Positions 3,174 through 22,200 of a stretch of DNA of 23,456 bases are shown here, one piece after another (the first letter of the stretch is position 1; each line of letters opens with the position of its first letter). The stretch covers positions 1 through 23,456 of IMG/VR virus record IMGVR_UViG_3300013129_000035; one strand, given 5' to 3'. Position numbers and translations under genes: made by a program. Source of the DNA: a virus. Under the pieces are notes generated by a model. It saw only the letters and a program-made list of their open reading frames with translations, was not told where the DNA came from and ran no database searches.

Positions 3174-3575
3174 ATGCCAGTACAGCGCATTAGCAAGTCA
3201 TTTAAGGACATTAGTTTGTCCTTTCAGGTTAGTCCACTAACCTATGACTTGATTGCGATTAAAAATGAAAATGCAATTTCTAGATCTATTCGAAATCTTG
3301 TTCTTACCAATAGAGGAGAACGTTTTTTCAACAATACTCTGGGTTCTAGAGTTAATTCTTTGTTGTTTGAATCTTTGGATGATATTACTGCATCATCAGT
3401 AAGAGATGAAATTGAAAATGTAATTAATAATTATGAACCCAGAGTTGAGTTAATATCCGTTGATGCGGTTCCTAATTATGATGATGGCGAACTTAATGTA
3501 ACAATTCAATATTATATTATTGGAATTGATGCACAACCACAACAATTATCATTCGCATTACAGCCAACACGATAA
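3174..3575 (+). CDS. gp25: Baseplate wedge subunit gp25 (133 aa)
   Basis: The product is a member of the GPW/gp25 family, part of the T4 baseplate wedge close to the central hub and needed for sheath attachment. Length 133 aa compares with 132 for T4 gp25. Family signs are the segment NLVLTNRGERFF (41-52), the following small/polar turn NNTLGSRV, and the EPR motif (88-90, NYEPRVEL) in the alpha-beta core; the C-terminal half is beta-rich. The start follows the late promoter; there is no clear Shine-Dalgarno sequence. The stop TAA overlaps the ATG of gp6 (TAATG), so the two are translationally coupled. In T4, genes 25 and 6 are not adjacent; this gp25-gp6 order is typical of cyanomyoviruses. 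Confidence 0.95.
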   Translation: MPVQRISKSFKDISLSFQVSPLTYDLIAIKNENAISRSIRNLVLTNRGERFFNNTLGSRVNSLLFESLDDITASSVRDEIENVINNYEPRVELISVDAVPNYDDGELNVTIQYYIIGIDAQPQQLSFALQPTR

Positions 3576-5479
3576 TGCCATTAGTTAATTTTGCAAATCT
3601 AGATTTCGATCAGATAAAGACATCAATTAAAAATTATCTTAGATCAAATTCAAACTTCACTGATTATGACTTTGAAGGATCTAATTTATCTACAATTGTT
3701 GATGTGCTTGCCTATAATACGTATATAACCTCGTATAATGCCAATATGGTATCGAATGAGGTTTTTATTGATAGTGCAACTTTAAGAGAAAATGTCGTTT
3801 CTCTTGCAAGAAATATTGGATATGTTCCAAAATCTAAAACCTCATCTAAAGCAAGTATATCGTTTTTTGTAGATTTTTCTGCATATACAACGAAACCAGA
3901 GGCAATTACATTAAATAAAGGAGTTGTGTGCTCAACAACAACATTTGGAACAGAAAACTATACTTTTTCAATATTAGATGACATTACAGTTGCAGTAATT
4001 AATAATATAGCTACTTTTGATGAAATTACTGTTTATGAGGGAATTTATATTGCATCAAATTTTACTGTAGATTCTTATAATCCTAACCAAAGGTTCATAC
4101 TTCCAAACTCGAACATTGATACAACTACAATTAGGGTATTGGTTAAACCATCACAATTTAACGATATAAAAAGAAAGTATATACAAGCAAATAGTTTATT
4201 TAATATTAACTCAGACTCACCAGTATTTTGGGTACAAGAAATAGAAGATGAAAGATATGAATTAATTTTTGGTGATGGAGTTTTTGGAAAAAAATTAGAA
4301 TCACCCAATTACATCGAAGTAACTTATCTTGTTTCGAACGGTGAATCGGCAAATAATATATCTCAATTCAATTTTAGTGGAAAATTAACTTCTTCTAGAG
4401 AATCTATTCTAATAAATTCTGGAATATCTTTAATAACCACCAATCAGTCTTCATATGACGGAAGTGAAATTGAACAAATAGAGTCTATTAAAAAGTATGC
4501 TCCTAGAATTTATTCATCGCAAAATAGAGCAGTTACCGCAAGAGATTATGAATCAATAGTTCCTACAATATACCCAGAAACAGAATCAATTTCTGTTTTT
4601 GGTGGAGAAGAATTAAGTCCTCCGCAATTTGGAAAAGTTTTTATTAGCATTAAACCAACTAATGGTTCTTATCTTTCAAATCTAATCAAAGATAACATTA
4701 AAAAAGATCTTAGGCAATACTCTATTGCGGGAATAGTTCCGGAAATTATTGACTTAAAATATTTGTATATCGAACCAAATATAAATGCATATTACAACAC
4801 AAATTTAGCAGCATCTGCAAATTCAATATCAAATATTGTTTCAACAAATGTAGAAAGATATGCAAATTCATCAGAATTGAATAAATTTGGGGCAAGGTTT
4901 AAATATAGTAAATTTTTAAAAATAATTGATGACAGTAGTAATGCAATAACGTCAAATATTACGACAGTTATTATGAGAAGAGATTTGCGACCAGTGTTAA
5001 ATAGTTTTACCGAATATGAAATTTGTTTTGGAAATAGATTTCATATTAAAAATGAAAATGGATATAATATTAAATCCTCTGGGTTTAATGTAAGTGGAAT
5101 TGTTGGTACGGTGTATCTTTCCGATTTACCAAATGCCGACAAAGAAACTGGATCTATATTTTTGTTTAGATTAAATTCACCAACACAACCAGAGATTGTT
5201 AAAAAATCTGTAGGAATAATTGATTATATTAAAGGAGAAATTAAACTTTCTCCCATTAATATAACAAATGCAGTATTAAATATAGGTTTTCCTATCATTG
5301 AGATTTCGGTATCTCCGTATTCTAATGACATTATAGGACTTCAAGATTTGTATTTACAATTGGATATGACTAAAACAACTATTAATACTAAACCAGACAA
5401 TATATCTTCTGGAAACGATGTTACTGGTACAAATTATCTAGTTACATCAAGTTATGCAAACGGAATTTTAGTAAGATAA
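3575..5479 (+). CDS. gp6: Baseplate wedge subunit gp6 (634 aa)
   Basis: The product is a homologue of T4 gp6 (660 aa), the wedge protein that forms the inner ring joining baseplate wedges. It has a baseplate J-like core. The N-terminal region (NFANLDFDQIKTSIKNYLRS) carries a helical dimerisation-type segment followed by DYDFEGSNLSTIVDVLAYNT, which is typical of the family. A central YELIFGDGVFG motif (228 on; GDG 233-235) is followed by the strand YIEVTYLVSNG. A later segment, KKYAPRIYSSQNRAVTARDY (about 307-326), is the best conserved stretch of gp6/J-like proteins. The C-terminal about 150 residues are less conserved. It starts coupled to gp25 and is followed after 14 nt by the giant gene. 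It is strongly AT-biased at third positions. No truncation. Confidence 0.95.
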   Translation: MPLVNFANLDFDQIKTSIKNYLRSNSNFTDYDFEGSNLSTIVDVLAYNTYITSYNANMVSNEVFIDSATLRENVVSLARNIGYVPKSKTSSKASISFFVDFSAYTTKPEAITLNKGVVCSTTTFGTENYTFSILDDITVAVINNIATFDEITVYEGIYIASNFTVDSYNPNQRFILPNSNIDTTTIRVLVKPSQFNDIKRKYIQANSLFNINSDSPVFWVQEIEDERYELIFGDGVFGKKLESPNYIEVTYLVSNGESANNISQFNFSGKLTSSRESILINSGISLITTNQSSYDGSEIEQIESIKKYAPRIYSSQNRAVTARDYESIVPTIYPETESISVFGGEELSPPQFGKVFISIKPTNGSYLSNLIKDNIKKDLRQYSIAGIVPEIIDLKYLYIEPNINAYYNTNLAASANSISNIVSTNVERYANSSELNKFGARFKYSKFLKIIDDSSNAITSNITTVIMRRDLRPVLNSFTEYEICFGNRFHIKNENGYNIKSSGFNVSGIVGTVYLSDLPNADKETGSIFLFRLNSPTQPEIVKKSVGIIDYIKGEIKLSPINITNAVLNIGFPIIEISVSPYSNDIIGLQDLYLQLDMTKTTINTKPDNISSGNDVTGTNYLVTSSYANGILVR

Positions 5480-5493
5480 TTAAAAAAAGAAAC

Positions 5494-8400
5494 ATGATAT
5501 CAACAGATCTGCAAAGAGTACAAATTCAAGATATAGTTGAAAGTCAACTTCCATCCTTCATAAGAGAAGACTTTCCACTTATAACTGATTTTTTAAAACA
5601 GTATTATATATCTCAAGAATATCTTGGAGCTTCTGTTGATTTAATACAAAATATTGATCAATATTTAAAATTGGAATCTTTATCGGATAATTCTCAATAC
5701 ACAGAATTATCTGGAGATATTTCTTTTTCGGATACGGATATTAATACTACTTTTAATTTAGATCAACAAATTTTTGGCACGTATGGATTTCCTGAAAAAT
5801 ATGGATTAATTCAAATAGATGATGAAATCATTCTATATACAGAAAAAACTAATACATCTTTTACTGGATGTATCAGGGGATTTAGTGGAGTCACTTCATA
5901 TACTAATTTAAACTCAACAGATTCTCTAACATTTTCATCTTCAGAAGTTTCGGAACACACTTCTGGCACCAAAATTATTAATTTGAGTGCTTTATTATTT
6001 GAAGAATTTTTGAAAAAAATAAAATATCAATTTGCTCCGGGATTTGATAGCAGAAAATTAGATAATGATGTAAATGAAAGACTTTTTATATCGAGGACAA
6101 AAGATTTTTATCAATCAAAGGGAACAGATGAATCTTTTAAAATTCTTTTTTCTGCTTTATATGGAGAAAAAGTTGCTGTCATAAAACCAAAAGATTATCT
6201 TTTTAGACCATCTGATGCCGAGTATAGAGTAACAAAAGATATTGTTGTTCAATCGATAAATGGAAATCCACTAGATTTACTAAATCAAACTTTATTTCAA
6301 GATGCTTATGAAAATTACAATATACAAAAAGCTTATGCATCAATTACGAATGTTGAAAAAATTTCATATTCATCTCAAGAATATTATAAACTAAGTTTAG
6401 ATTTTGATTATTCAAAAGATATCACTATTGATGGTAGTGTTTATGGTGAATTTTCAGTACATCCAATTACAAAAGTAATAAATTCAGTTTCTATTGGATC
6501 TTCAATTATTGATGTCGATTCTACAATAGGATTTCCTAATTCTGGGGAATTGATTGCAGAATCTTCTTCTGGTAACATAGATATACTCACATACGGATCA
6601 AAAAGCAATAATCAATTTTTTGACGTTGGATTAGCTAGCACAACAGAAAAAGGTATAACTTTTAATATAAACTCTAAATCAAATATCAGACTAAACGTTA
6701 GTGCTTATGGATACGTTGGATTTGGAACAACATCAAAAGTAGAAGTTAGAATTGGATCTGTACTTTCTGATTTAATAATAAACGATGATACTTATTATTT
6801 TTCAAAAAATGATACTGCTCTCATTAAATCGTTGGGAATAACAACAAGTGGTCCAAAAACAAACAGTTGGATTTATAATATTGCAACAAAATTTGATATT
6901 AAATCAATTGCATTAATTGATACTTCAGACTTTACTTATAATATTGAGACTTATGTTCCAAATAATTTTAATATTGGGGACATTCTTTTAATTACAAACA
7001 ATGCATCTGAAATTAAAACATGTTCTGTAACAAACATAATAAATGAGTTTATATTTTCTATTAGTGGTCAGGGATTAATCAATGGAAATATATCAACAAT
7101 TGAAAGAAAAATTTTAAAACCTAAAGTAAGTTCTTCTTTATCAAATTATTCATATATTGAAAATTATATTTCAAATGTACAAAATACTTATGCAAAATTT
7201 AATCAAGATGTTTTAGTTTCTTCCTCATCCTTACCCAATTATTACAATCAACCATTAAATTTTTACGATAAAAAAATAATATTAAACGGACAATACAGTG
7301 GAGAAATTTTTACTATTGATGATATAAATGATCATGGATATTATACTGGTGATGCAATTTATTACAATTCATTTACATTTCAAGATACAATCGATGGAAC
7401 TTTAGTATCTACTACTAGTAAATTTCAAAATTTAACTCCAGGAATATATTATGTAAAGAGAGTAAATCAAAATCAATTTAAAATTGCAAGTAGTCCTGCA
7501 AATCTTTATAATAATAATTTTATTTCAGTATCAGGAATAGTTACTTCAAATACTTTTGAATATCTTGATTTTAATCAAAAAACTTTAAACCATCAAAATT
7601 TGTTGAGAGAAATTAAATCCCCAAATAATAAAAGTGATAATTACGTAACAAGTCCAGGAAAAACAGGAATATTAATTAATGGAGTAGAAATATTAAATTA
7701 TAAATCCGAAGATGTAATTTATTATGGATCTTTACAAAAAATTGAAGTAACATCTGGTGGAAATAATTATGATATAGTAAATCCTCCAATTTTAACAATA
7801 ACAGATGATAATGGTAGTGGAGCAATTGCTAATTGTTCGGTAAAGGGCAATTTAAAAAGAATTGATATAATTGATCCTGGTTTTGATTACCTATCAAAAC
7901 CAATAGTTACGATCACCGGCGGAAATGGAAGTGGAGCAAAAGCATTAGTAAATACAACTTTTATAGATCATTCGGCACTATTTAATTCAACAGCACAATC
8001 GGCAAATGTTGGATTGTCTAATAATGTTATAGGTTTTTCAACATATCACAAATTTAGAAATGCGGAAAAAATAATTTATAAAACCGATGGTCAAAATGGT
8101 ATATCTGGATTAGTTACGAATTCGCAATATTATGTTAGAACTATAGATGCCGTCACTATTCAATTGTTTAAAAATGAAGCAGATGCTATATCTGGAGTAA
8201 ACACAATTTCATTAAATTCTTTTGGAGATGGTGTACATAGACTGCAATCTTTCAATAAAAAGCAAATAATTTCAAATATTGTAATTGAAAATTCTGGTTC
8301 AAATTACGAAAATAAGAAAAGGATAGTTGGTAATATCGGAGTTAATACTGCATCTAATCAGATAAACATAAAAAATCATCAATACAATTCTGGGGATATT

Positions 8401-11400
8401 ATTCAATACACATTTAATCAAATTCCAATAATAGGATTGAGTTCAAATACATCATATATTGTTACAAAAGTTGATGAAGATCATTTCAAACTTTCTAATG
8501 TGGGTTTAGGATCGACCGCAAAACTTTTCTACTACGAAACAAAGCAATATATTAGTTTTAAATTCTCTGGGTCTGGAACGCATATTTTTAATTATGAACC
8601 AATTTCTGTAACTATCGAAGGCAAAATTGGAGTTACAACTTTTTCTGATCAAAATTTTAATGCAATAGTTCAACCAATTTTTAGAGGGTCAGTAGAATCA
8701 ACACAAATTATCGATGGTGGCATAGGATATGGGTCGTCTGAAATTTTAAATTACAATAGACAACCATTACTCGATCTTTATAGTGGATCGAGTGCAGAAG
8801 TTTTGCCAATCGTAAATAATGGTCGCATTGTAGAAGTATTAATTACAAATGGGGGAAGTGGATATAATTCTCCGCCAGAGCTAGCAATTAATGGATCTGG
8901 AAAATATGGTAAACTGACTCCTGTTATTAAAGATGGAAAAATAACAAAAGTAATAATTGAAAATCCGGGAATCGGATATGAAAATAAAATTCGAGTTGAC
9001 ATAATTCAAAGTGGAAATGGTGCAAAGTTTAATGTAAATATTCAAAAATGGACAATAAATTTATTTCAAAAGTATTTGAATAGTATTTCAGATGATGATG
9101 GAATCTTAAGCAAATCCCTAAATGAAAACTTTGGTATACAATATACTCATTTGTATGCACCAAGAAAACTAAGAGAATCCATATATTCGAAAAATCAAGA
9201 TAATGAAATTAAGTATGGTATATTTGATTTACAAAAAGTCAATGGTGAAGAAATAAAGTCTTCATATCATTCTCCAATTATAGGATGGTCCTATGATGGA
9301 AATCCAATATATGGCCCATATGGATTTTCTTCAAAAACTGGAGGAACAATTAGAGAAATGACCTCTGGATATCAGTTGGTAACCAAGTCAAATAGACCAC
9401 CAATTTCAAATTTTCCGCAAGGATTTTTTGTTGAAGATTATGAATTTACAAATTCTGGAGATTTGGATGAACATAATGGACGGTTTTGTGTAACCCCAGA
9501 TTATCCAAATGGAGTTTATGCATATTTTGCAACCATTAATCCGGGAAACGTTGAAAGTATTTTGCCATTCAAAAATTACAAAATACCAGTATTTCCATAT
9601 TTAATCGGTAATACTTTTAAATCTAAACCAAACGAATTCAATTTCAATCCAGATTCAAATCAAATTACATATGATTTGAACAAAGATGAATGGTTTAGAA
9701 ATACAACACCATATAATTTGACAGAAAATGCTGCCTATTATGAGTATCTTTTTCAACCAAATAAACTAAAATCACAAAAAGTTAATATTAATGAAGTTTC
9801 TACAGGTAGTATAAAATCGGTTGGAATTTTAACTGGAGGATTTGATTATAAAATAAATGATCAGATAATATTTAATCCTGAAGAAAATAATATTCAAAAA
9901 GCAAAAGCAAAGGTTTCTAGAATTCTAGGAAAACCTGTTACAAATATTAGTGTTGCATCAACAACTATATCCCAATTGGAGTTAATTCCATCCGATTCGA
10001 ATGGAACATATGTTGCTTTTTCAACTTATCCACATAATTTATCAAATAATGATTTAATTTCATTATCCGGATTTAATACATCAATTAATTATTTGAATAA
10101 TAATTTTAATATTGGTGTTAAAACTGAATCTTTTATTTTAAAATCTGGTGTAGGAACTGATGGAATAACTGGAGTAGTTACATATTTTAGTATATCGGGA
10201 TTATTTGAAAATAATATTTTTTCGTTGAGAGAAAATGATGTTCTTACAGCAGATCAAGAAATAGTTAAAGTTATTAATGTAGATGTCAAAAATTCCAGAA
10301 TTCGAGTTGTTAGATCTCAAAATAATACTATATCAGCAGCCCACACATCTTCAACTTTATTATATGAAAATTCTAGAAAATTTACTTTTAATTCAATACC
10401 AGAAAATAATGTAGAGTTTGAACTCAATAGAGAAATTTATTTTGACCCAAAAGAATCTCTCGGACTTGGATCTACGACCGGAGTTGGAATTGGAACAACC
10501 ATATTCTTCTCCAATCCAGGAGCAGGAATAACTCAATTTTTTATTCCTACACAATCAATATACTTACCAAATCATAAATTAAACACTGGAGATATTTTAA
10601 ATTATCAAACAAACGGCGGAACTTCAATTAATGTTTCAATGGGAGGAACTTCTCAATTCGATTTACCAAGTTCCTCAATTGTTTATGTTGGTAAAATTTC
10701 TGATGATTTAATTGGAATATCAACATATAGTGTTGGAATTGGATCTACTGGAACTTTTGTCGGAATTGCAAGCACCACTTCAAATTTTGGACTACTATTT
10801 TTTACTGGAATAGGAACGGGAGTCTATCATAGCTTTAAGACAATAAAGAAAAATATAATTTCAGCAGAAGTATCTAAAAATATTGTTACTGTTTCAACAT
10901 CTTCAACTCATGGATTGAGTTTAAGTGACAAAGTATTTGTTGAAGTCAATCCATTTGTTACTACAAATATTATAGTAAAATATGATGATTATAACCGAAG
11001 AATGGTATTTAATCCAAAACCATTCACTGCAGCAGATGTGGACGTTGAAGAAAACTCAATAACAATTGCTAATCATGGATTTTTAACAGGAGATAAAGTA
11101 ATTCATACCTCAACGTTTTCTTCTTTTGGATTAAATAATGAAGAAATTTATTATGTAATTAAAATTTCTAAAGATAAAATTAAATTATGCTCAAGTAAAT
11201 ATCAAACGACACAATTTACTCCTGAAGTTGTTGGTATAACATCTGCATCTTTTGGAACATTATCTACAATCAATCCAAAAATATATACATATAAAAATAA
11301 TAGTTTAAAATTTGATCTTTCAGATGCATCACTATCATCTCAAAATGGATCTACTTTATATTCTGCATTTGATTTAAATCTTTATACCGATAAAAATTTT

Positions 11401-14400
11401 AAAAATATTTTTAATTCTTCAGAAAAAAATACTTTTTTTGAAGTTTCAAAGATAGGACAAATTGGAATTACTAGCAATGCAGCATTATTGTTAAAGGTAA
11501 CAGAAAATTTGTCAAGACAACTTTATTATAATTTTACTCCAACCAATACTAATTTTATTTCGCAAAATAAAAAAGAAATTTACAATGACGAAGAGGTAGA
11601 AAGTAATAATCAAATTGAAATTATTAATAGTGCTTATTCTGGAGAATTTGACATTACTGGAATTGGAACCACATCAACATTTACTTATAATTTATCATTA
11701 GTTCCAGAATCAAATTCCTATGATATAAATTCGGCAAATATTAAATATTCGACAACATCACTTTCTGCATCTGGATCCATTGAAAAAATCTTTGTAAATT
11801 ATGGAGGAAGTTTATATAAAAATATTTCAGGTGTTTCAACAATAGCATCAAATTTTGGATATGGTGCAATTTTAGAATCATCTAGTGATAATATAGGAAA
11901 AATATTATCTACTCAGATAGAAGATATTGGATTTGATTTTCCTTCAGATAAAACTTTAAGACCAGTAGTAAATCTTCCAGAAATCTTAATAGTCGATTCT
12001 TTATCATCATTTGATGAAATTGGAATTAGTTCAGCAGGAAAAAATTATACGATACCATCAAATTTGGTTGTAATTGATGGATTTACTGGAAAACAAGTTG
12101 AAGATGTGGATTTAAAATACAATATTGGTGATACTAAAGTTAAAATTTTAAAAAATACTTTTGGTATATACAATGTCCCACCAAAAATTATTCCAGTCAG
12201 CAATCCGAATGGGGTAAAAATTAATAATATAAGTTACAATTCGACAACTAAAAAAGTAACAGTTGGATTAAATACTGGATTTAGTGATATTTCTCCATTT
12301 TCCGTAGGGGATAAAGTTTTGATTGAGAATATTAGTGTAGGAGTTGGTTCTACTGGCATAGGATATAATTCTTCAAATTATGGATATTCCTTGTTTACTT
12401 TATCGGAAGTTTATATTCCTCTAGGTGGAAGTGTAGGAATAGTTACATATAGCCTTGATGGATACATAGATGAAGGTTCAATTCCTGGCAATTTTGATTC
12501 TGTCAATTCATCTGGAAGAATAATAGCAGAAAAGGATTTTCCAGTTTTTGATATTAAATTGAAAAAAAATAATTTTATATTAGGAGAAACTGTAACATCA
12601 CAAAATAATATTGGTGAAGTGGAAAGTTGGAATAATGAAATCGGTCTTTTAAAGATTTCAACAACAAAAGATTTTAGCACAGGAAATATAATAAAAGGTC
12701 AAACATCCAAAACTCAAGGATTAATCAGAAAAAAAATAGATTTTAATGCAGAATTAAAAACATCAGCATCATCAATAGTTAAAAATGGATGGCACAAAGA
12801 AACTGGATTTTTAAATTTTAATACGGAGAGAATTGCTGATAATAACTATTATCAAAATTTTTCATATTCCTTAAAATCAAAAGTTCCATTTGAAACTTGG
12901 AAGGATTCTGTCAGTTCATTAAATCATTCTGTCGGATTCTTAAAGTTTAGTGATTTGATCATTGAATCAGAAGACTTAAATTATAACGGAGTTTATTCTG
13001 ATTATTTTGGATCAACTATTGATGTAATTACTGATATATCAAATGAAATTGATTTAGATTGTTATAATAATTTTGATTTAGTCACAGAAAATTCTTTAGA
13101 TATTAATGGTGCAAAAATTATATCTAATGAAATTTATTTTGGTTCTAAAGTTTTAACTGACTATTTTGAGTCTTTTGGAAACAGAGTTTTAGTAATTGAT
13201 GATATAAGCACACAATTTAATAGCACACCAAGACCCACTAAATTTTCTGTTGTTGATACCTTTGACATATCGCATAAATCTAAAAAATATGTAACTTATA
13301 TTAGAGATAAAAGGTTTACTGATGAAAGACAAGTAATGTTGGTGAGCCTTTTACAAGATGGGTCTTTTGGATTTTTGAATCAATATGGAAGAGTTGAGAG
13401 TGTTTTAGATTTGGGTAGTTTTGATTTTAATATTTCGGGGTCTGAAGGTCAACTTTTATTTTATCCCACAAAATATTCAATTAACAATTATAATGTAAGT
13501 TTTGCTAGTTTTGATATTATTAGCCTTTCTACATCTGGAATAGGATCTACTAGTCTTGGCGATATTGTTGATATCAGAACAACTAAAACAGTAGTTCCAT
13601 TGAACACTACGACAAGCATTGTTTCTATCGCATCATCATATAGAACTTCAAAAATTCTTATTGAATTAATGGGAAATAATGGTGAGTTTGAATTTGATGA
13701 AATTAATATGATTCATAATGGAACTAATGTAGACATTTTGGAATATGGTCAACTTACAAATACAACACTGAATAGATTTGGAACTTCAGGATTGGGAACT
13801 TACAATGCATATATTTCTGGAGGAAATACAATTTTAGATTTTATTCCAAATTCTGGAATAGCAGTTACCACAAATACATTAAGAATTTCTATATCAGATA
13901 CTTCATCAACAGGAATAGGCACACAATATCTTGGATTTGATCTTGAAAATATTGCATTTATAGATTCTTCATATACAGCAATTTCATCATCACCTACACC
14001 TACGGAAAATATTATTGCAAAGTACAGTAATGTAGTGCCAAATGACCATAGTTGTTCATATTTTATAGTTAGTGTTGAGGATACTACGAATAATCAATAT
14101 GAAATGTCGGAGGTCATTTTGTTAAATGATGGCAGTAATAGCAATGGATCGAAAACATATATTACACAGTACGGAAATCTTTCGACTAATTCTGGATTGG
14201 GGACTGTTGGTGCGGCAATTTCTACTACACACACAAATTTATATTTTACACCAATTCCAAACGCAAATGTAGAAGTTCGTGTTTTTCAAACAAGTCTTCA
14301 GTTGGTTGATTTGGAAGATAATCAATCTTCTTATATTGATTTAAACAATGCAACAATTAGTGCAGGGTTTGGTTTTTATCAAGGAACCGAAATTGATGTT

Positions 14401-17400
14401 AGAAGAGCATTTGATTTAACTCACAAACAAAGACCAATATTTTTAAGAAATTTTGATGGAGGAAACTCTTCAATCGTAAGTGTTTCTGAAGATACCATTA
14501 CTCTCCCAGAACACTTCTTTGTAACTGGGGAAGAAGTTTTATATTCACATGATCCAAATTATGCAAGTGCGATAGGAATAGCATCAACTAGTTTTGTTGG
14601 TGTTGGAACAACAAATATTTTACCATCTTCTGTTTATGCAATTAGAGTAAATGATCAAAAAATAAAACTTGCAAGATCTGCAGAGGATGCTTTAAATTCA
14701 ATCCCAATTTCATTGGATATAACAAACGTAGGAACGGGAACATATCATACATTTACTGCAAAAAATCAAAATACAAAATGTTTAATTGCCATCGATAACT
14801 ATATTCAATCCCCGATCGTTTCTACTTCAGTCACTACTGGTATTACCACTCACATTGGATTAATTGACGACATTATTAAGGTTTCAGGAATAACATCATT
14901 TTTTGGTGGAGACTTAATAAAAATTAATGATGAAATTATGTTAATTAATACTGTTGGGTTTGGAAGCACAAATTCAATACTCGTTACTCGACCATGGATG
15001 GGGACTGGATTGTCAACTCACTCACAATATTCTAAAGTGACAAAGGTAATGGGAGATTATAACATTACCGACAATACTATTAATTTTATTACAGCACCTC
15101 AAGGACCAATTCCAATTGGATCGTCAACTAATCCTCCAAGTGAGAGAGATTGGACAGGAATTACTACATTTTCTAAGTTTCAAGGAAGATCTTTCTTAAG
15201 ATCTGCACCGGAAAATAGTAACGAAGAAACATATGCAAAAAATTATGTTTTTGACGATATTTCTCAAGGATTTGATGCTACGCAAAAAATATTTACTCTA
15301 CAATCAGAAAATCAAAATATTTCTGGTTTTTCGACCAACAATTCAGTAATACTCATCAATGGGATATTTCAAGGACCAACAGGACAATTAACAATACCTC
15401 AAGATTATTCTTTATCCGAAAGTTCTGGAATTACAAGCATAACATTTACCGGAACTGCGACTTCTGTTGCATATGATCCAAATAACGCAAGTATACCAAA
15501 AGGTGGAATAATTATATCGGTTGGTTCCACAAGAGGGTTTGGGTATCAACCATTGGTATCTGCAGGAGGAACGGCAATAGTTTCAATTGCAGGTACAATT
15601 TCCTCCATCAGTATTGGTAATAGTGGATCCGGATATAGATCAGGTATTCAAACTGTTAGAGTTGGTGTTACAACATCTTCCTTAGAAACTCCAGATATTT
15701 TTTATGTTGGAATTGCATCAGTTGTTGATGGATATATTGTGGGGGTTGCAATAACAAATTCCGGAATTGGATATACGATTTCAAATCCACCGTATGTTAT
15801 TTTTGATGCACCACTTTCATACTCCAATATTTCTCTAATTTATAGTTCAGAATCTCCTTCTGGATTTGGTACTGAGGCAACAATTGATATTGTAGTTGGG
15901 CAAGGATCTAGTGTTATTGATTTTGAAATTAAGAATTTTGGATATAATTACGGACAATCTCAAATTTTAACAGTTGGGATTGGAGGATCTGTTGGAATTC
16001 CAACCGATACAACTAAAACTTTTGAAGAATTTCAAATTAGTATCGACAAAACTGCAACGGATGAATTTGCAGGTTGGCACTTTGGTCAACTTGAAGTGCT
16101 TGACAAAATTGAAAATCAGTTTAATGGAAAAAGAAAATCTTTTACTATTTCATTAAATTCTTCTCCAGTTACAATTAGATCAGCAAAAGGATCAAACATC
16201 GATGTTCAAACAACTCTTCTTGTCTTTTTAAATGATGTTCTTCAAGTTCCTGGAGAAGGATATACTTTCACTGGAGGGAGTGTGATAACTTTTGCAGAAC
16301 CACCAAAAGGGTCTTCTAATGATGGTTCTGTAATTGGAGACAAATGTAAAATTTTATTTTATAAAGGAAGTGGTGATGTTGATGTGGTGTTCCGTGATGT
16401 TTTAGAGACAGTTAAAGTTGGAGACAATTTAACAATTAAAGACCAAGAAAAACGAATAGTAACTGAAATTATTTCATCGGATGCCGTTGAAACAAATTCA
16501 TATAATGGTTTTGGTATTGATTCAAATCCAGCAAATCAAAGAATTGTTGAGTGGTGCAAACAAAAATCAGATAAAATAATTAATGGTAAAGTTGTAAGCA
16601 AAAGTAGAATTTTAAATGAAGCACTAATAAATCCTTCGACATATGTTATTCAATCTGTTGGAATTGGATCTACCATAGTATATGTTGAAAGTGTAAAATC
16701 TTTCTTCGATTCGGTAAAAGAAAACCAAACAACACCAAATAAACAAAAAATTATTTTAGTATCTCAAGATACAATCGTGGGTGCTTCTGCAACTGCAGTT
16801 GTTTCTGCTGCAGGAACTATCTCTTCTATAATTATCACAGATGGTGGAGTTGGGTATAGTACAAATCCAATCATAAGTATTGGAGATCCTGTTGGATACG
16901 GAGTTTCTACACCAAAAACAACCTATATCAATGGACAATCAATACCAGTAGGATTAGGTACAACTGCTTCAGCAACTTCAATTATTTCAGTTGGAGGAAC
17001 CGTATCATCAATAGTAATCACAAATCCAGGTGCAGGATATACTAGTTCTAATCCACCACAAATTTTAATCGAAGTTCCTCATGTTGTCTATGAACTTAAT
17101 ACTTCAAATTCATATGAGGGTGACTTTGGAGTGATTGTTGGTGTTTCTACTACATCAGTGGGAGTTGCCTCTACTGCATTTGTTTTTGACTTATTCATTC
17201 CTATTAATTCTTATTTAAGAGACACTACTATTGTAAGCAGTGCAGCAACTATTAGTGGTATTCAAACTGGATATTATTTCGTTGCCAAAAATACAAACGT
17301 TGGAAGTGGTGTTACATCTCTATATCAAGATAATACCACTCTTGGAATTGCAACCCAATTCTTAGACATTGTATATAAAGTTGCTTCAGTTTCAACAGCT

Positions 17401-17649
17401 ACAACAGCAGTTGCGGGTGTCGGTATTACATACGTAAGAAGAGTAATAGTAAGTATAAGTGATTTTGGAGATACTTCTGGAATTGGAGCAACAGAATTTT
17501 ATGGTGAGTATTCTTGGGGAAGAATTAATTTAGGTTCTAGACCTAATGCCAAACCATTCCCCGCATATACATTAAATGGTTCTTCTGGAATATCAACTTC
17601 TTCTTCAATTACTAGAGTTCAACCATTAAAATATCTGAATTATATTTAA
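5494..17649 (+). CDS. Giant (4051 aa) virion structural protein in the gp7 slot, with YHYH domain
   Basis: One uninterrupted frame of 12,156 nt. It lies between gp6 and gp8, exactly where T4 has gp7 (1032 aa). Residues about 10-230 resemble the C-terminal part of T4 gp7 as I recall it: LPSFIREDFPLITDFLKQYY (19-38), and ISRTKDFYQSKGTDESFKIL (199-218) leading to LFSALYGEKV. Residues from Y1258 to about 1375 are a YHYH-type domain (YHSPIIGWSYDGNPIYGPYG and GRFCVTPDYPNGVYAYF). The rest is built from repeated beta-rich modules: at least 14 GGxGY repeats, six GDxxxY...FKL modules, three tandem modules at 2596-2936, three E-I/V-x-x-x...RG/GT...H modules and two LNxxxQxPxxxY modules. Numerous G[IVLF]G[ST]T turns and only about ten Cys are present. 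There is no signal peptide. Likely a very large baseplate/fibre protein: N-terminus in the wedge, the rest extended outward. It has a weak AAAGAAA ribosome site and the most AT-rich codons in the window. Confidence 0.9.
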   Translation: MISTDLQRVQIQDIVESQLPSFIREDFPLITDFLKQYYISQEYLGASVDLIQNIDQYLKLESLSDNSQYTELSGDISFSDTDINTTFNLDQQIFGTYGFPEKYGLIQIDDEIILYTEKTNTSFTGCIRGFSGVTSYTNLNSTDSLTFSSSEVSEHTSGTKIINLSALLFEEFLKKIKYQFAPGFDSRKLDNDVNERLFISRTKDFYQSKGTDESFKILFSALYGEKVAVIKPKDYLFRPSDAEYRVTKDIVVQSINGNPLDLLNQTLFQDAYENYNIQKAYASITNVEKISYSSQEYYKLSLDFDYSKDITIDGSVYGEFSVHPITKVINSVSIGSSIIDVDSTIGFPNSGELIAESSSGNIDILTYGSKSNNQFFDVGLASTTEKGITFNINSKSNIRLNVSAYGYVGFGTTSKVEVRIGSVLSDLIINDDTYYFSKNDTALIKSLGITTSGPKTNSWIYNIATKFDIKSIALIDTSDFTYNIETYVPNNFNIGDILLITNNASEIKTCSVTNIINEFIFSISGQGLINGNISTIERKILKPKVSSSLSNYSYIENYISNVQNTYAKFNQDVLVSSSSLPNYYNQPLNFYDKKIILNGQYSGEIFTIDDINDHGYYTGDAIYYNSFTFQDTIDGTLVSTTSKFQNLTPGIYYVKRVNQNQFKIASSPANLYNNNFISVSGIVTSNTFEYLDFNQKTLNHQNLLREIKSPNNKSDNYVTSPGKTGILINGVEILNYKSEDVIYYGSLQKIEVTSGGNNYDIVNPPILTITDDNGSGAIANCSVKGNLKRIDIIDPGFDYLSKPIVTITGGNGSGAKALVNTTFIDHSALFNSTAQSANVGLSNNVIGFSTYHKFRNAEKIIYKTDGQNGISGLVTNSQYYVRTIDAVTIQLFKNEADAISGVNTISLNSFGDGVHRLQSFNKKQIISNIVIENSGSNYENKKRIVGNIGVNTASNQINIKNHQYNSGDIIQYTFNQIPIIGLSSNTSYIVTKVDEDHFKLSNVGLGSTAKLFYYETKQYISFKFSGSGTHIFNYEPISVTIEGKIGVTTFSDQNFNAIVQPIFRGSVESTQIIDGGIGYGSSEILNYNRQPLLDLYSGSSAEVLPIVNNGRIVEVLITNGGSGYNSPPELAINGSGKYGKLTPVIKDGKITKVIIENPGIGYENKIRVDIIQSGNGAKFNVNIQKWTINLFQKYLNSISDDDGILSKSLNENFGIQYTHLYAPRKLRESIYSKNQDNEIKYGIFDLQKVNGEEIKSSYHSPIIGWSYDGNPIYGPYGFSSKTGGTIREMTSGYQLVTKSNRPPISNFPQGFFVEDYEFTNSGDLDEHNGRFCVTPDYPNGVYAYFATINPGNVESILPFKNYKIPVFPYLIGNTFKSKPNEFNFNPDSNQITYDLNKDEWFRNTTPYNLTENAAYYEYLFQPNKLKSQKVNINEVSTGSIKSVGILTGGFDYKINDQIIFNPEENNIQKAKAKVSRILGKPVTNISVASTTISQLELIPSDSNGTYVAFSTYPHNLSNNDLISLSGFNTSINYLNNNFNIGVKTESFILKSGVGTDGITGVVTYFSISGLFENNIFSLRENDVLTADQEIVKVINVDVKNSRIRVVRSQNNTISAAHTSSTLLYENSRKFTFNSIPENNVEFELNREIYFDPKESLGLGSTTGVGIGTTIFFSNPGAGITQFFIPTQSIYLPNHKLNTGDILNYQTNGGTSINVSMGGTSQFDLPSSSIVYVGKISDDLIGISTYSVGIGSTGTFVGIASTTSNFGLLFFTGIGTGVYHSFKTIKKNIISAEVSKNIVTVSTSSTHGLSLSDKVFVEVNPFVTTNIIVKYDDYNRRMVFNPKPFTAADVDVEENSITIANHGFLTGDKVIHTSTFSSFGLNNEEIYYVIKISKDKIKLCSSKYQTTQFTPEVVGITSASFGTLSTINPKIYTYKNNSLKFDLSDASLSSQNGSTLYSAFDLNLYTDKNFKNIFNSSEKNTFFEVSKIGQIGITSNAALLLKVTENLSRQLYYNFTPTNTNFISQNKKEIYNDEEVESNNQIEIINSAYSGEFDITGIGTTSTFTYNLSLVPESNSYDINSANIKYSTTSLSASGSIEKIFVNYGGSLYKNISGVSTIASNFGYGAILESSSDNIGKILSTQIEDIGFDFPSDKTLRPVVNLPEILIVDSLSSFDEIGISSAGKNYTIPSNLVVIDGFTGKQVEDVDLKYNIGDTKVKILKNTFGIYNVPPKIIPVSNPNGVKINNISYNSTTKKVTVGLNTGFSDISPFSVGDKVLIENISVGVGSTGIGYNSSNYGYSLFTLSEVYIPLGGSVGIVTYSLDGYIDEGSIPGNFDSVNSSGRIIAEKDFPVFDIKLKKNNFILGETVTSQNNIGEVESWNNEIGLLKISTTKDFSTGNIIKGQTSKTQGLIRKKIDFNAELKTSASSIVKNGWHKETGFLNFNTERIADNNYYQNFSYSLKSKVPFETWKDSVSSLNHSVGFLKFSDLIIESEDLNYNGVYSDYFGSTIDVITDISNEIDLDCYNNFDLVTENSLDINGAKIISNEIYFGSKVLTDYFESFGNRVLVIDDISTQFNSTPRPTKFSVVDTFDISHKSKKYVTYIRDKRFTDERQVMLVSLLQDGSFGFLNQYGRVESVLDLGSFDFNISGSEGQLLFYPTKYSINNYNVSFASFDIISLSTSGIGSTSLGDIVDIRTTKTVVPLNTTTSIVSIASSYRTSKILIELMGNNGEFEFDEINMIHNGTNVDILEYGQLTNTTLNRFGTSGLGTYNAYISGGNTILDFIPNSGIAVTTNTLRISISDTSSTGIGTQYLGFDLENIAFIDSSYTAISSSPTPTENIIAKYSNVVPNDHSCSYFIVSVEDTTNNQYEMSEVILLNDGSNSNGSKTYITQYGNLSTNSGLGTVGAAISTTHTNLYFTPIPNANVEVRVFQTSLQLVDLEDNQSSYIDLNNATISAGFGFYQGTEIDVRRAFDLTHKQRPIFLRNFDGGNSSIVSVSEDTITLPEHFFVTGEEVLYSHDPNYASAIGIASTSFVGVGTTNILPSSVYAIRVNDQKIKLARSAEDALNSIPISLDITNVGTGTYHTFTAKNQNTKCLIAIDNYIQSPIVSTSVTTGITTHIGLIDDIIKVSGITSFFGGDLIKINDEIMLINTVGFGSTNSILVTRPWMGTGLSTHSQYSKVTKVMGDYNITDNTINFITAPQGPIPIGSSTNPPSERDWTGITTFSKFQGRSFLRSAPENSNEETYAKNYVFDDISQGFDATQKIFTLQSENQNISGFSTNNSVILINGIFQGPTGQLTIPQDYSLSESSGITSITFTGTATSVAYDPNNASIPKGGIIISVGSTRGFGYQPLVSAGGTAIVSIAGTISSISIGNSGSGYRSGIQTVRVGVTTSSLETPDIFYVGIASVVDGYIVGVAITNSGIGYTISNPPYVIFDAPLSYSNISLIYSSESPSGFGTEATIDIVVGQGSSVIDFEIKNFGYNYGQSQILTVGIGGSVGIPTDTTKTFEEFQISIDKTATDEFAGWHFGQLEVLDKIENQFNGKRKSFTISLNSSPVTIRSAKGSNIDVQTTLLVFLNDVLQVPGEGYTFTGGSVITFAEPPKGSSNDGSVIGDKCKILFYKGSGDVDVVFRDVLETVKVGDNLTIKDQEKRIVTEIISSDAVETNSYNGFGIDSNPANQRIVEWCKQKSDKIINGKVVSKSRILNEALINPSTYVIQSVGIGSTIVYVESVKSFFDSVKENQTTPNKQKIILVSQDTIVGASATAVVSAAGTISSIIITDGGVGYSTNPIISIGDPVGYGVSTPKTTYINGQSIPVGLGTTASATSIISVGGTVSSIVITNPGAGYTSSNPPQILIEVPHVVYELNTSNSYEGDFGVIVGVSTTSVGVASTAFVFDLFIPINSYLRDTTIVSSAATISGIQTGYYFVAKNTNVGSGVTSLYQDNTTLGIATQFLDIVYKVASVSTATTAVAGVGITYVRRVIVSISDFGDTSGIGATEFYGEYSWGRINLGSRPNAKPFPAYTLNGSSGISTSSSITRVQPLKYLNYI

Positions 17650-17672: not shown

Positions 17673-19232
17673 ATGTCAGCAATTATAACTGATCAACTTC
17701 GTATTTTAAATGCAAAACAATTTGTTACTAGTGTAGCATTAACTACTAGTTCTTACTACACATTTGTGGGGCTTCCAAATGCAACACAAGTTAGTTCTAC
17801 TTGGGATACTACTCCACCAGACCCTAGAGATAATTTTGATGAAGAAAATAATTATTGGGATACGATAATTGCCCTCAAAAAAATAAATTCTTCAGACGTA
17901 AAACAAGTTGTAAGAAAAATAACTTGGCAATCTGGAATTACTTATGATATGTATAGGCATGACATAAGTGGAAGTGTTGGAAAGCAATCTAAACCATCAA
18001 ATGCGACTAGTTTATATGATGCCAATTATTATATTGTAAACTCTGATTATAAAGTGTATATTTGCCTTCAAAATGGAACTGATCCAGAAAATCTTTCAGG
18101 AAAAGCATCTTTAGATGAACCAACTTTTACTGATTTAGAACCAAGAGAAGCTGGAACAAGTGGTGATGGATATGTTTGGAAATATCTTTATACTATTAAA
18201 CCAAGTGATATTATAAAATTTGATTCAACGAATTTTATGCCAGTTCCATCCAATTGGGAAACTAATGTTGATGATGCTGCAGTAAGAAATAATGCAAAAT
18301 CAAGTGGACAATTAAAAATAGTAACAATTTTAAATAGGGGGGTTGGATTAGGAACAGCTAATAGAACATACACAAGAGTTCCAATTAAAGGTGATGGAAC
18401 AGGTGCTGAAGCAACAGTAGTAATTAATAATAATTCAAAAGTAGAATCAGTAACAATTTCTTCTGGTGGAAATGGATATACTTTTGGAACTTTGGATTTG
18501 GTTGGAGGTAATGTTCCAACAGGGACTATATCTCCAATTTTCAATGTAATTATTCCCCCACAGGGAGGACATGGTTCTGACATTTATCGAGAACTTGGTG
18601 CCAGAAATGCATTAATATATTCTAGAATTGAAAATGATACTGAAAATCCAGATTTTATTACCGGAAATCAAATTGCAAGAATAGGGATTGTACAGAACCC
18701 TAAAGCATATAACGCAGTACAAAATTTAGATTTAGATAAAGCCAGTGCAACTTATGCATTAAAATTAACAGGAGTTGGATATAGTTCAGCAACTTTTACT
18801 CCAGATTCTTTTATTACTCAAACCATTGGTATTGGATCAACTGCTGTAGGAAAAGTTGTTTCCTATGATCAAGTTACTGGAGTTCTAAAATATTGGCAAG
18901 ACAGATCAACGTCTGGATTTAATACTGATGGAACACAAAACATTTCACCAGTTTATGGATTTCAATTAAATAGATTTACTTCAACTCTAAATGGTGGGGG
19001 ATCAATAAGCATTATGGGTGGATCTTCGACATTATCAATACAAACCTCTTTTACTGGTGTTTCTACAGCAATAAATAGTAGAACATATTACTTAGGTCAA
19101 TCGTTTATTCAAGGTGTATCTCAACCAGAAGTTGAAAAATACTCAGGAAACATCATTTATATAGACAATAGACCTTCTATAACAAGATCTATTAACCAAA
19201 AAGAAGATATTAAAGTCATTTTGCAGTTCTAA
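17673..19232 (+). CDS. gp8: Baseplate wedge subunit gp8 (519 aa)
   Basis: The product is a homologue of T4 gp8, the wedge protein that binds gp7 and helps anchor gp10. The recognisable block is GDGYVWKYLYTIKPSD (from G164), which matches the GDGYVWEYLF region of T4 gp8, followed by the PVPSNW stretch. Upstream, WDTTPPDPRDNFDEENNYWD and TYDMYRHD fit the gp8 N-terminal domain. At 519 aa it is much longer than T4 gp8 (334 aa). Part of the excess is a glycine-rich insert at about 240-280 containing VESVTISSGGNGYTFG (257 on), the same repeat type that fills the giant neighbour. The ATG at 17673 is preferred because the ATG 7 nt upstream is immediately followed by TAA. No Shine-Dalgarno sequence, but its own late promoter. 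The stop is 6 nt before the next gene. Confidence 0.93.
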   Translation: MSAIITDQLRILNAKQFVTSVALTTSSYYTFVGLPNATQVSSTWDTTPPDPRDNFDEENNYWDTIIALKKINSSDVKQVVRKITWQSGITYDMYRHDISGSVGKQSKPSNATSLYDANYYIVNSDYKVYICLQNGTDPENLSGKASLDEPTFTDLEPREAGTSGDGYVWKYLYTIKPSDIIKFDSTNFMPVPSNWETNVDDAAVRNNAKSSGQLKIVTILNRGVGLGTANRTYTRVPIKGDGTGAEATVVINNNSKVESVTISSGGNGYTFGTLDLVGGNVPTGTISPIFNVIIPPQGGHGSDIYRELGARNALIYSRIENDTENPDFITGNQIARIGIVQNPKAYNAVQNLDLDKASATYALKLTGVGYSSATFTPDSFITQTIGIGSTAVGKVVSYDQVTGVLKYWQDRSTSGFNTDGTQNISPVYGFQLNRFTSTLNGGGSISIMGGSSTLSIQTSFTGVSTAINSRTYYLGQSFIQGVSQPEVEKYSGNIIYIDNRPSITRSINQKEDIKVILQF

Positions 19233-19238
19233 AGAATT

Positions 19239-22200
19239 ATGACACAAGAAACAAATCTGAATGTAGCACCATATTTTGATGATTTTGATGCAAACAATGA
19301 CTATTATAAAGTTCTTTTTAAACCTGGATATCCAGTTCAAGCTAGAGAGTTAACAACTTTACAATCCATTTTACAGAATCAAATTGAAAAATTTGGTCAG
19401 CACTTTTTTAAAGAGGGTGCTAAAGTAATACCTGGAAATACTGCATATAGCACTTCATATTATGCAGTTGAGTTAGAAAATATTTACTTAGGAGTACCAA
19501 TATCTGATTATATCAATCAAATTTTGGGATCAAAAATAACTGGATTGACTTCTGGAGTAACAGCAGTAGTTGATAAAATAATATTAGCAAATGAATCTGA
19601 GAGGGGAAATACGACATTATATATTAGTTACTTAGAATCAAACTCGCAAGATAATTCTTCTTTACAATTTTTAGATGGTGAATTATTATCAGCAAATAGA
19701 ACAATTACGTCATCCAATACTGTTATTGCTTCTGAGGAAGCATTTGCATCCACTTTGTCCGCAAATTCGACATCCATTGGATCAGCATTTTCAATATCTA
19801 ATGGAATTTATTTTGCAAAAGGTCAATTTTTAAATGTAAACGACGAAACAATCCTTTTAGATCAATATTCTAATAAACCAAGTTATAGGGTGGGACTTTT
19901 AATCAATGAAGAAATTATTAACTCTGATATTGATTTCTCTTTAAATGATAATTCAAAGGGGTTTAATAATTATGCAGCACCTGGAGCAGATCGACTTAAA
20001 ATAACAACTTCTCTACATAAAAAAAGTTTAGATGATTTTGATGATAATAATTTTATTGAATTAGCAACTATTGATAACGGTATACTAAGATCTCAAAAAA
20101 AGACAACAGATTATAATATTTTAGAGAATGAACTTGCTCGAAGAACATATTCAGAATCTGGAGATTATTATGTAACTCCATTTGATGTATCAATAAAAGA
20201 ATCTCTTAATAATAATCTTGGTAATAGAGGAATTTTTAACGTAAATCAACAAACATATGGAGGACAATCTCCATCTAAAGATTTAGCTCTCTATCAAATA
20301 TCTGCAGGAAAAGCATTTGTGAGAGGATATGAAATAGAAACGATTAGTTCAGCATTTCTGGATGTTCCAAAACCAAGAACAACAAAAACTTTAGAAAATC
20401 AATCAATAAACTATCAAACTGGTTCAACTTTAAAATTAAATAGAGTTTATGGATCTCCACAAATTGGCATAGGAAATACTTATGTTTTAAGTCTTAGAGA
20501 TACTAGAGTTGGAATTGCTTCTACAATTGCACCAGGAAAAGAAATCGGAGTTGCTAGAGTTTATGATTTTAAGTTAGATTCTGGATCTTACAATTCAACA
20601 AATTCAAATATAAACGAATGGAATATATCTCTTTATGATATTCAAATAATTTCCGAAATCACATTAAACGAACCGATCAATTTATCTGTTCCAACTTTTG
20701 TTAAAGGAAAATATAGTGGAGCAACTGCATTCTTAAAATCTTCGGTTTCTGCTGGTGTTGCATTAACAGTTTATGAAAAAACTGGCAATTTTATTCAAAA
20801 TGAACCATTTATTTTTAATGGAATAGAAAATACTAGAGTTGCAACAGCAATTACATCATACAATATTTCTGATGTAAAATCTGTTTTTGGAATTGTAGGA
20901 TCTTCTTCTACATTTTCTGCAGATACAATTCAATCTACAATTTTAAATATTGGAATATCTACTATAAGTGTGGTTAATTCTTTAGGAATTAGTACAATTA
21001 TCAGTACAAATCCAATATTTCCAAAAGGGTTGAAAGTTGGTAATCTACTAAAATTCAGTAACCAATCGGCAATTGATCCAATTTTTGCCTCAGTTGTTAG
21101 TGTGGCAACAACTCACGTAAGAATTTCTGGAGTAACAACTGTATCTGGAGTGTGTGGGGGACAACTTCCCCAGTCATCAACTCTTCAAGTTACAGACTTA
21201 CAGTTAATAGCAACAGATTTGCAAGGATCTGAGGATAATTCATTTTACACTGAATTGCCAAAACAAAATATTTCTTCAGTAGATTTGACTAATGCAACAT
21301 TAACTATTAGAAAATCTTATACGGTTAATATTACAAATAATCAACTATCAACGACAGTCCTTGCGGGAGAAAATGAAACCTTTTTACCCTTTGATTCAGA
21401 AAGATATTTACTTATGAGATCTGATGGGATTGTAGAAACTCTGACATCAGATAAAATTTCATTAACAAATGGTTCTACTGAGCTTCAAATTTATAATTTG
21501 GGTTCTAACAATGTAGGGGCTACTTTAGTTACAACATTAACAAAAATCAAACCAAAACAAAAAATTAAAATTAAAAATAGAGTAAATTCGATTATAGTTG
21601 ATAAATCTAAATATATTTCTTCTGGAATTGGATCCACAACTCTAAACGATGGTCTTAATTATGGTAATTATGCATATGGAACTAGAGTGCAAGATGAAAA
21701 TATATCATTAAATGTTCCTGATGTTGTTGAACTACACTCAATATATGAGTCAGTTGATACTTCTACTCCATCGGCTCCAACTGTTGAATTGTCATCAATA
21801 ACTGGCCCTACTGGAAAAACATTAGATTTAATAATCGGAGAAAAATTTACCGGACAAACAAGTGGTGCAGTTGCGATATATGCAGAAAGAATTACAGATT
21901 CTAAGATTTCATTTATTTCAAAAAATAATATTAATTTTAAAGAGGGTGAAATTGTAGTTTTTGAAGAGTCAAATATTCAAGCTTTTGTTACGACTTTAAA
22001 TACACCGAGTATCAATGTTTCTTTTAACTTTACATATAATAATGGACAAAATTCATCTTTTTATGATTACGGAGTAATTAATAGAAAATCGGGAGTAAAA
22101 GAACCTTCTAGAAAATTAAAAATTTATTTTTCTAATGGATATTATCAATCCTCTGATGATGGTGATATAACAACCGTAGATTCTTATTCTGGATTTGATT

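Follow-up and report, generated by a model that had tools for sequence, protein, structure and literature searches.

What is the block of three tandem modules within the gp7 protein of this virus, and what might it do? T4-like cyanophages are common ocean viruses, but to our knowledge little has been established on how their fibres are held, and we know of no assignment past 'baseplate wedge' for most of the giant cyanophage gp7 proteins. The window, the whole stretch of DNA that was analysed, is a 23,456-base virus record with the gene order gp25-gp6-gp7-gp8, followed by the start of a DUF4815 protein, and the following features define the surroundings of the block:

3174..3575, + strand: gp25, baseplate wedge protein, upstream of gp7 (Pfam GPW_gp25)
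3575..5479, + strand: gp6, baseplate wedge protein, upstream of gp7 (Pfam Gp6 domains)
5494..17649, + strand: gp7, baseplate wedge protein of 4,051 residues which holds the three-module block (open reading frame, phrog_2885 and gene order)
12613..12972, + strand: conserved gp7 stretch, residues 2374-2493, shared with the gp7 (1016 residues) of pelagiphage HTVC008M (BLASTP E 5.1e-6)
17673..19232, + strand: gp8, baseplate wedge protein, downstream of gp7 (Pfam Phage-Gp8, phrog_438)

The 4,051-residue protein matches phrog_2885 ('baseplate wedge subunit') with 3649 bits and is placed between gp6 and gp8, and its closest relatives are the gp7 proteins of T4-like cyanophages, e.g. Bellamy, S-SM2 and S-B05. 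From the gene order, the phrog_2885 match and these relatives it is clear that the window is a fragment of a T4-like cyanophage, and that the block sits within gp7, where it comes after the stretch conserved in HTVC008M. The window gp7 has its gene order and PHROG family in common with T4-like gp7 proteins, and with T4 gp7 itself one stretch of similarity (E 1.7e-6), a second one in the same order being weak (E 0.022). T4 gp7 is 1032 residues long and the module was not matched in it, whereas the window gp7 has 4051 residues and three modules. The open reading frame in the gp6-gp8 interval varies from 1,016 residues in HTVC008M to 6,076 in Syn9 and 7,312 in P-SSM4, an approximately sevenfold range in gp7 size. 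In the window gp7 lies directly before gp8 with no gene between them; in other phages, genes between gp6/gp7 and gp8 contain matches to part of the PF07880 model (S-B05 12902-13147, S-SCSM1 21093-21212, P-TIM68 75803-75910, P-SSM4 79118-79330 and Syn9 79023-79430).

The original prediction, made from the sequence, placed three consecutive segments at gp7 residues 2596, 2718 and 2854 with spacings of about 122 and 136 residues. All three were found at these sites save for an offset of two residues (KYVTYIRD at 2598, KILIELMG at 2720 and YFIVSVED at 2856), and the spacings by the actual starts are 122 and 136. Within gp7, BLASTP linked modules 1 and 3 (E 5.7e-5) and modules 2 and 3 (E 7.8e-5), and by itself gave no significant match between modules 1 and 2 (E 1.8). 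The pairwise profile alignment proposed as a check, run with 66 aligned sequences, matched all three pairs (2.4e-8 for modules 1 and 2, 2.3e-11 for modules 1 and 3, and 4.5e-18 for modules 2 and 3). The repeat is genuine, and homology among the three modules is confirmed. No fourth copy was detected when the three module profiles were scanned over 80 windows of gp7, as the strong matches all overlap the block, and outside it the best gp7 window (residues 3001-3100, module 2 profile) reached E 8.4e-4 over 18 columns, followed by 5.7e-3.

The description of the block as the clearest true tandem block of the protein stands insofar as no other run of three adjacent copies was found, but the strongest repeat pair is located elsewhere. 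The gp7 protein is repeat-rich, with E < 1e-3 in 116 of 1,540 non-overlapping window pairs, and its strongest pair (E 7.9e-18) consists of the windows starting at residues 911 and 1821 (nucleotides 8224-8553 and 10954-11283). This repeat is dispersed, with further matches near residues 561, 841, 1681 and 3011, and the protein as a whole resembles a mosaic built from a few small repeated domains. Elsewhere in the protein, a YHYH domain (PF14240, E 4.1e-25) lies within residues 1254-1350 (nucleotides 9253-9543), and phrog_460 (head closure Hc2) matches residues 1107-1182 (nucleotides 8812-9039). Since a stretch of gp8 (residues 206-271) matches phrog_460 as well, a small domain may be common to baseplate and neck proteins.

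With regard to the fold, an AlphaFold2 model of gp7 residues 2540-2990, built with 56 sequences, had a mean pLDDT of 84.4 and a pTM of 0.82. Three beta-sandwiches of nine strands each and with identical strand order are predicted with confidence, in line with the proposal that each segment forms one beta-sandwich. With nine strands each repeat is longer than originally described (residues 2585-2701, 2707-2830 and 2839-2962), and hence the block extends to about nucleotide 14379 rather than 14302. Its parts are as follows:

13246..13521, + strand: module 1 body, residues 2585-2676, with no ordered first strand ahead (model strands; profile match to modules 2 and 3)
13558..13599, + strand: predicted link strand before module 2, residues 2689-2702, with the model strand at 2692-2701 (model; gp9 alignment)
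13612..13917, + strand: module 2 body, residues 2707-2808, best match to the T4 gp9 C-terminal domain (Z 11.0)
13945..13983, + strand: link strand before module 3, residues 2818-2830, predicted first strand of domain 3 (model strand; gp9 alignment start in the second model)
14008..14319, + strand: module 3 body, residues 2839-2942 (Z 8.9 to gp9 169-288)
14329..14379, + strand: tail strand behind module 3, residues 2946-2962, proposed as the missing strand of module 1 (pLDDT drop without module 1)

The best solved match to this model is T4 gp9, the socket or connector of the long tail fibre, a homotrimer which binds both gp7 and the long tail fibre. Residues 169-286 of gp9 (1qex) align with model residues 150-267, i.e. 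module 2, with a Z of 11.0 and 2.6 A over 114 residues, and in a second model made without module 1, gp9 169-288 fits module 3 (Z 8.9, 2.3 A over 114 residues). Folds that fail to superpose, named beforehand as the outcome against a triplicated block, were not seen, a statement which covers modules 2 and 3, as both fit gp9 169-288 at 2.3-2.6 A. The structural matches after gp9 were a Klebsiella phage baseplate chain (9f4a, Z 9.3), which in the model without module 1 aligns to module 2, and tailspikes (Z at most 7.2), and the top non-phage match had a Z of 5.4. Foldseek alone gave the gp9 match with a weak E of 2.8e-3 and a probability of 1.00, and matches in a viral structure library, outside the gp7 relatives, included a tail fibre-like protein of S-SM2, at 1.5 A over 112 columns.

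The sequence profiles point in the same direction. A combined module profile of 42 rows matched a gp9 C-domain profile from seven phages with E 1.8e-7, and the single module profiles matched it with 3.1e-4, 5.6e-5 and 3.1e-5, whereas the control comparisons of the combined module profile with the N-terminal and middle parts of gp9 gave E 0.43 and 0.64. A bridging stretch was found in a 675-residue open reading frame of S-TIM5, where the module profile (6.6e-14) and Pfam T4_gp9_10_C (E 0.0027, under the cut-off) match in one frame. When T4 gp6-gp12 and wac were compared with the modules as single sequences, gp9 was best with E 0.0025, which is insufficient by itself. Taken together, the modules are supported as remote homologues of the C-terminal domain of T4 gp9. 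The window is not hit by Pfam PF23618 (T4_gp9_10_C) even at E 10, nor are nine triplet-bearing isolates at E 0.1, and we therefore refer to the block as a remote relative of the gp9 C-domain, outside formal PF23618 membership. Similarly, PF07880, the gp9/10 N-terminal domain, is not found in the window up to E 10. The block thus has its fold, remote sequence similarity and home in a T4-type baseplate wedge in common with the gp9 C-domain (PDB 1qex 169-288; PF23618), but gp9 is a 288-residue homotrimer with one C-terminal copy per chain behind the gp9/10 N-terminal domain, whereas the block has three copies in the middle of a chain of 4051 residues. T4 gp10 also contains the Pfam gp9/10 C-terminal domain.

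No sequence of a solved structure matched the whole gp7 (E up to 1) or the block (E up to 10), and NCBIfam had no match to the modules. A Pfam match of module 1 to DUF6661 was below threshold (0.11), and matches of the S-SM2 module to Pirin (7.9e-4) and a sucrose phosphorylase domain (0.16) were both under the Pfam cut-off and were read as chance.

We expanded the module count, also proposed originally, to 16 other phages, of which nine were cyanophages found by similarity to the block and seven were chosen by name. The triplet was present in 11 of these 16, and none had a gp7 with one, two or four copies, so the number was three in each of the phages with the block. By profile search, three gp7 copies were found in eight of the nine similarity-found cyanophages. 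In the gp7 of ACG-2014f two copies passed the first profile search and the third appeared at E 0.0025 in a later one, and in P-SSM2 gp7 and in the S-SKS1 protein downstream of gp6 there are three copies, the middle one being weak (0.02-0.09). S-TIM5 is counted among the 16, but its gp7 could not be located for want of a gp6 or gp8 match. The profile search did not detect the module in the gp7 proteins of S-PM2, P-SSM4, Syn9 and HTVC008M, which rules out that the block is present in all T4-like cyanophages. All 166 metagenomic loci (138 distinct protein sequences) had three copies, albeit as a non-independent test of copy number, since the loci were chosen by similarity to a three-module query.

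In Syn9 and P-SSM4, the similarity to the window gp7 in this region stops at residue 2576, the edge of the block, and therefore the block seems to be gained or lost as one unit. Outside gp7, single copies were found in seven proteins, in all seven at the C-terminus as in T4 gp9, and some of these proteins are classed as tail or tail-fibre proteins. Examples are the cyanophage tail/fibre-like proteins S-SM2 E3SJ01 and S-PM2p089, which have the same module by profile, and for S-SM2 also by predicted fold, but in one C-terminal copy and not in gp7, whereas the window has three copies in gp7. Two variations in gene organisation were also seen: for the gp7 of Synechococcus phage B23 the annotation gives two genes overlapping by 4 bases (11257-11260 of the B23 locus), the break falling just past module 3, and S-SKS1 has the triplet in a gene of its own, with about 7 kb to gp6 that contains neither an annotated gene nor a single open frame.

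A tree of 37 module copies grouped them by position (modules 1, 2 and 3) and not by phage, with five label changes against a minimum of three and a shuffled mean of 20.8, and because the copies cluster by position, the tree indicates that the three-copy state predates the split of these phages. In the same tree, the single-copy modules of other proteins were placed, though weakly supported, among modules 2 and 3, which also allows an assembly of the triplet from copies that already existed. Of the proposed internal triplication followed by divergence, the three homologous modules are supported, and triplication in place and assembly from single copies are both candidate origins.

The predicted fold further suggests how the three domains may be held together. 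In domains 2 and 3 the first strand of the gp9 domain is supplied by the preceding link, and link 2689-2702 was assigned to domain 2 as the alignment of gp9 169-286 starts at model residue 150, which is residue 2689. Module 1 has no ordered segment ahead (pLDDT 35-60 over the first 40 model residues), and there is an extra strand behind module 3. As a ring test the block was re-predicted without module 1, and pLDDT was compared in ten-residue blocks, offset by one residue between the models. Without module 1 the tail-strand block dropped from 91 to 64 and the next block from 77 to 48, although the lower tail pLDDT in the shorter model could partly reflect the chain end; the tail strand shortened from 10 to 5 residues, and the module cores remained near 90 or above. 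With module 1 included, many immunoglobulin-type chains align over model residues 39-430 using only about 100 residues, a span that requires module 1 and the tail to be neighbours, and such rows are absent when module 1 is left out. A closed pseudo-trimer, in which the tail strand completes module 1 and the three domains would thereby close into a ring, is thus indirectly supported by the models. In sequence, the tail strand resembled the other first strands no more than the controls did, and a coevolution analysis of ring closure, with only 89 effective sequences, was too noisy to be informative, its top pairs being scattered.

In T4, the fibres stand coaxially on the gp9 and gp10 trimers (PMC3004832, excerpt). 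We lean towards the reading that the block is a single-chain pseudo-trimer of gp9-like domains in the wedge protein which serves as a fibre socket. The three gp9-like copies of one gp7 chain would fold into a closed pseudo-trimer, with domains 2 and 3 taking their first strand from the link ahead and domain 1, with none ahead, taking it from the tail behind module 3; this pseudo-trimer would be a covalently fixed fibre socket, one per wedge, and would offer a docking site to a trimeric tail fibre or fibre connector. That a fibre docks on the block is something we infer by analogy. The fuller version, of a covalent and closed three-domain mimic of the homotrimeric gp9 socket, shut by its own tail strand and with three faces diverged by position so that a trimeric fibre could sit on each wedge in only one register, is put forward more tentatively, at slightly below even chances. 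Fibres can be held without the block, as four gp7 proteins (S-PM2, Syn9, P-SSM4 and HTVC008M) lack it. As a rule, replacement of gp9 by the block was rejected, since a protein with a gp9-N match was also found in three of the nine isolates that have the triplet.

The best-surviving alternative is that the three gp9-like domains are arranged as beads on a string without a ring, forming an arm or spacer of gp7 or binding the cell surface themselves like other phage-tail beta-sandwiches. Tail proteins often contain beta-sandwiches in tandem, other baseplate wedge proteins have been predicted to carry carbohydrate-binding modules (PMC11406892, excerpt), and the gp7 modules also match tailspike domains with a Z of 5-7. 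We nevertheless consider such an arrangement unlikely, at about one chance in four: the pTM of 0.82 is high for a three-domain chain, the order of the tail strand depends on module 1, and copy number is constant at three in divergent phages, something for which a spacer would have no need. Less probable again is that the pseudo-trimer is a rigid core of the wedge, a substitute for gp8, gp10 or a pin, which touches neighbouring baseplate proteins and carries no fibre. Such a core would fit with gp10, in which Pfam finds this C-terminal domain too, belonging to the baseplate pins in T4 and with the block having no known fibre partner, but the gp10 trimer too holds a short fibre coaxially (both PMC3004832, excerpt), and the single-copy relatives lie at free C-termini, resembling a docking end. 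Finally, chance similarity within a repeat-rich, low-complexity protein with no real modules is hardly credible, for even though gp7 is rich in repeats and BLAST alone missed the match between modules 1 and 2, the profile E-values go down to 4.5e-18 with clean controls, the three predicted domains are confident and of equal kind, and three copies were regained in remote relatives.

A comparable arrangement to the proposed fibre socket is found in the distal tail protein claw of mycobacteriophage Mysterious, where one protomer offers a pseudo-trimer to a trimeric partner (PMC13252515, excerpt), although there it consists of loops with three arginines in a different protein and kind of phage, and in the block of three tandem domains. 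No description of the block was recognised among full-text papers other than subscription papers and bioRxiv preprints. The link to gp9, the constant three copies and the strand after module 3 go beyond the original prediction, and if the proposed reading is true, a fold and a relative can be assigned to a 380-residue stretch of gp7 together with a function open to testing, and what was a homotrimeric socket would have been turned into a single-chain pseudo-trimer within the wedge. Contractile tails in general face the problem of fitting a trimeric fibre to a baseplate of another symmetry, and a covalent pseudo-trimer would solve it cleanly.
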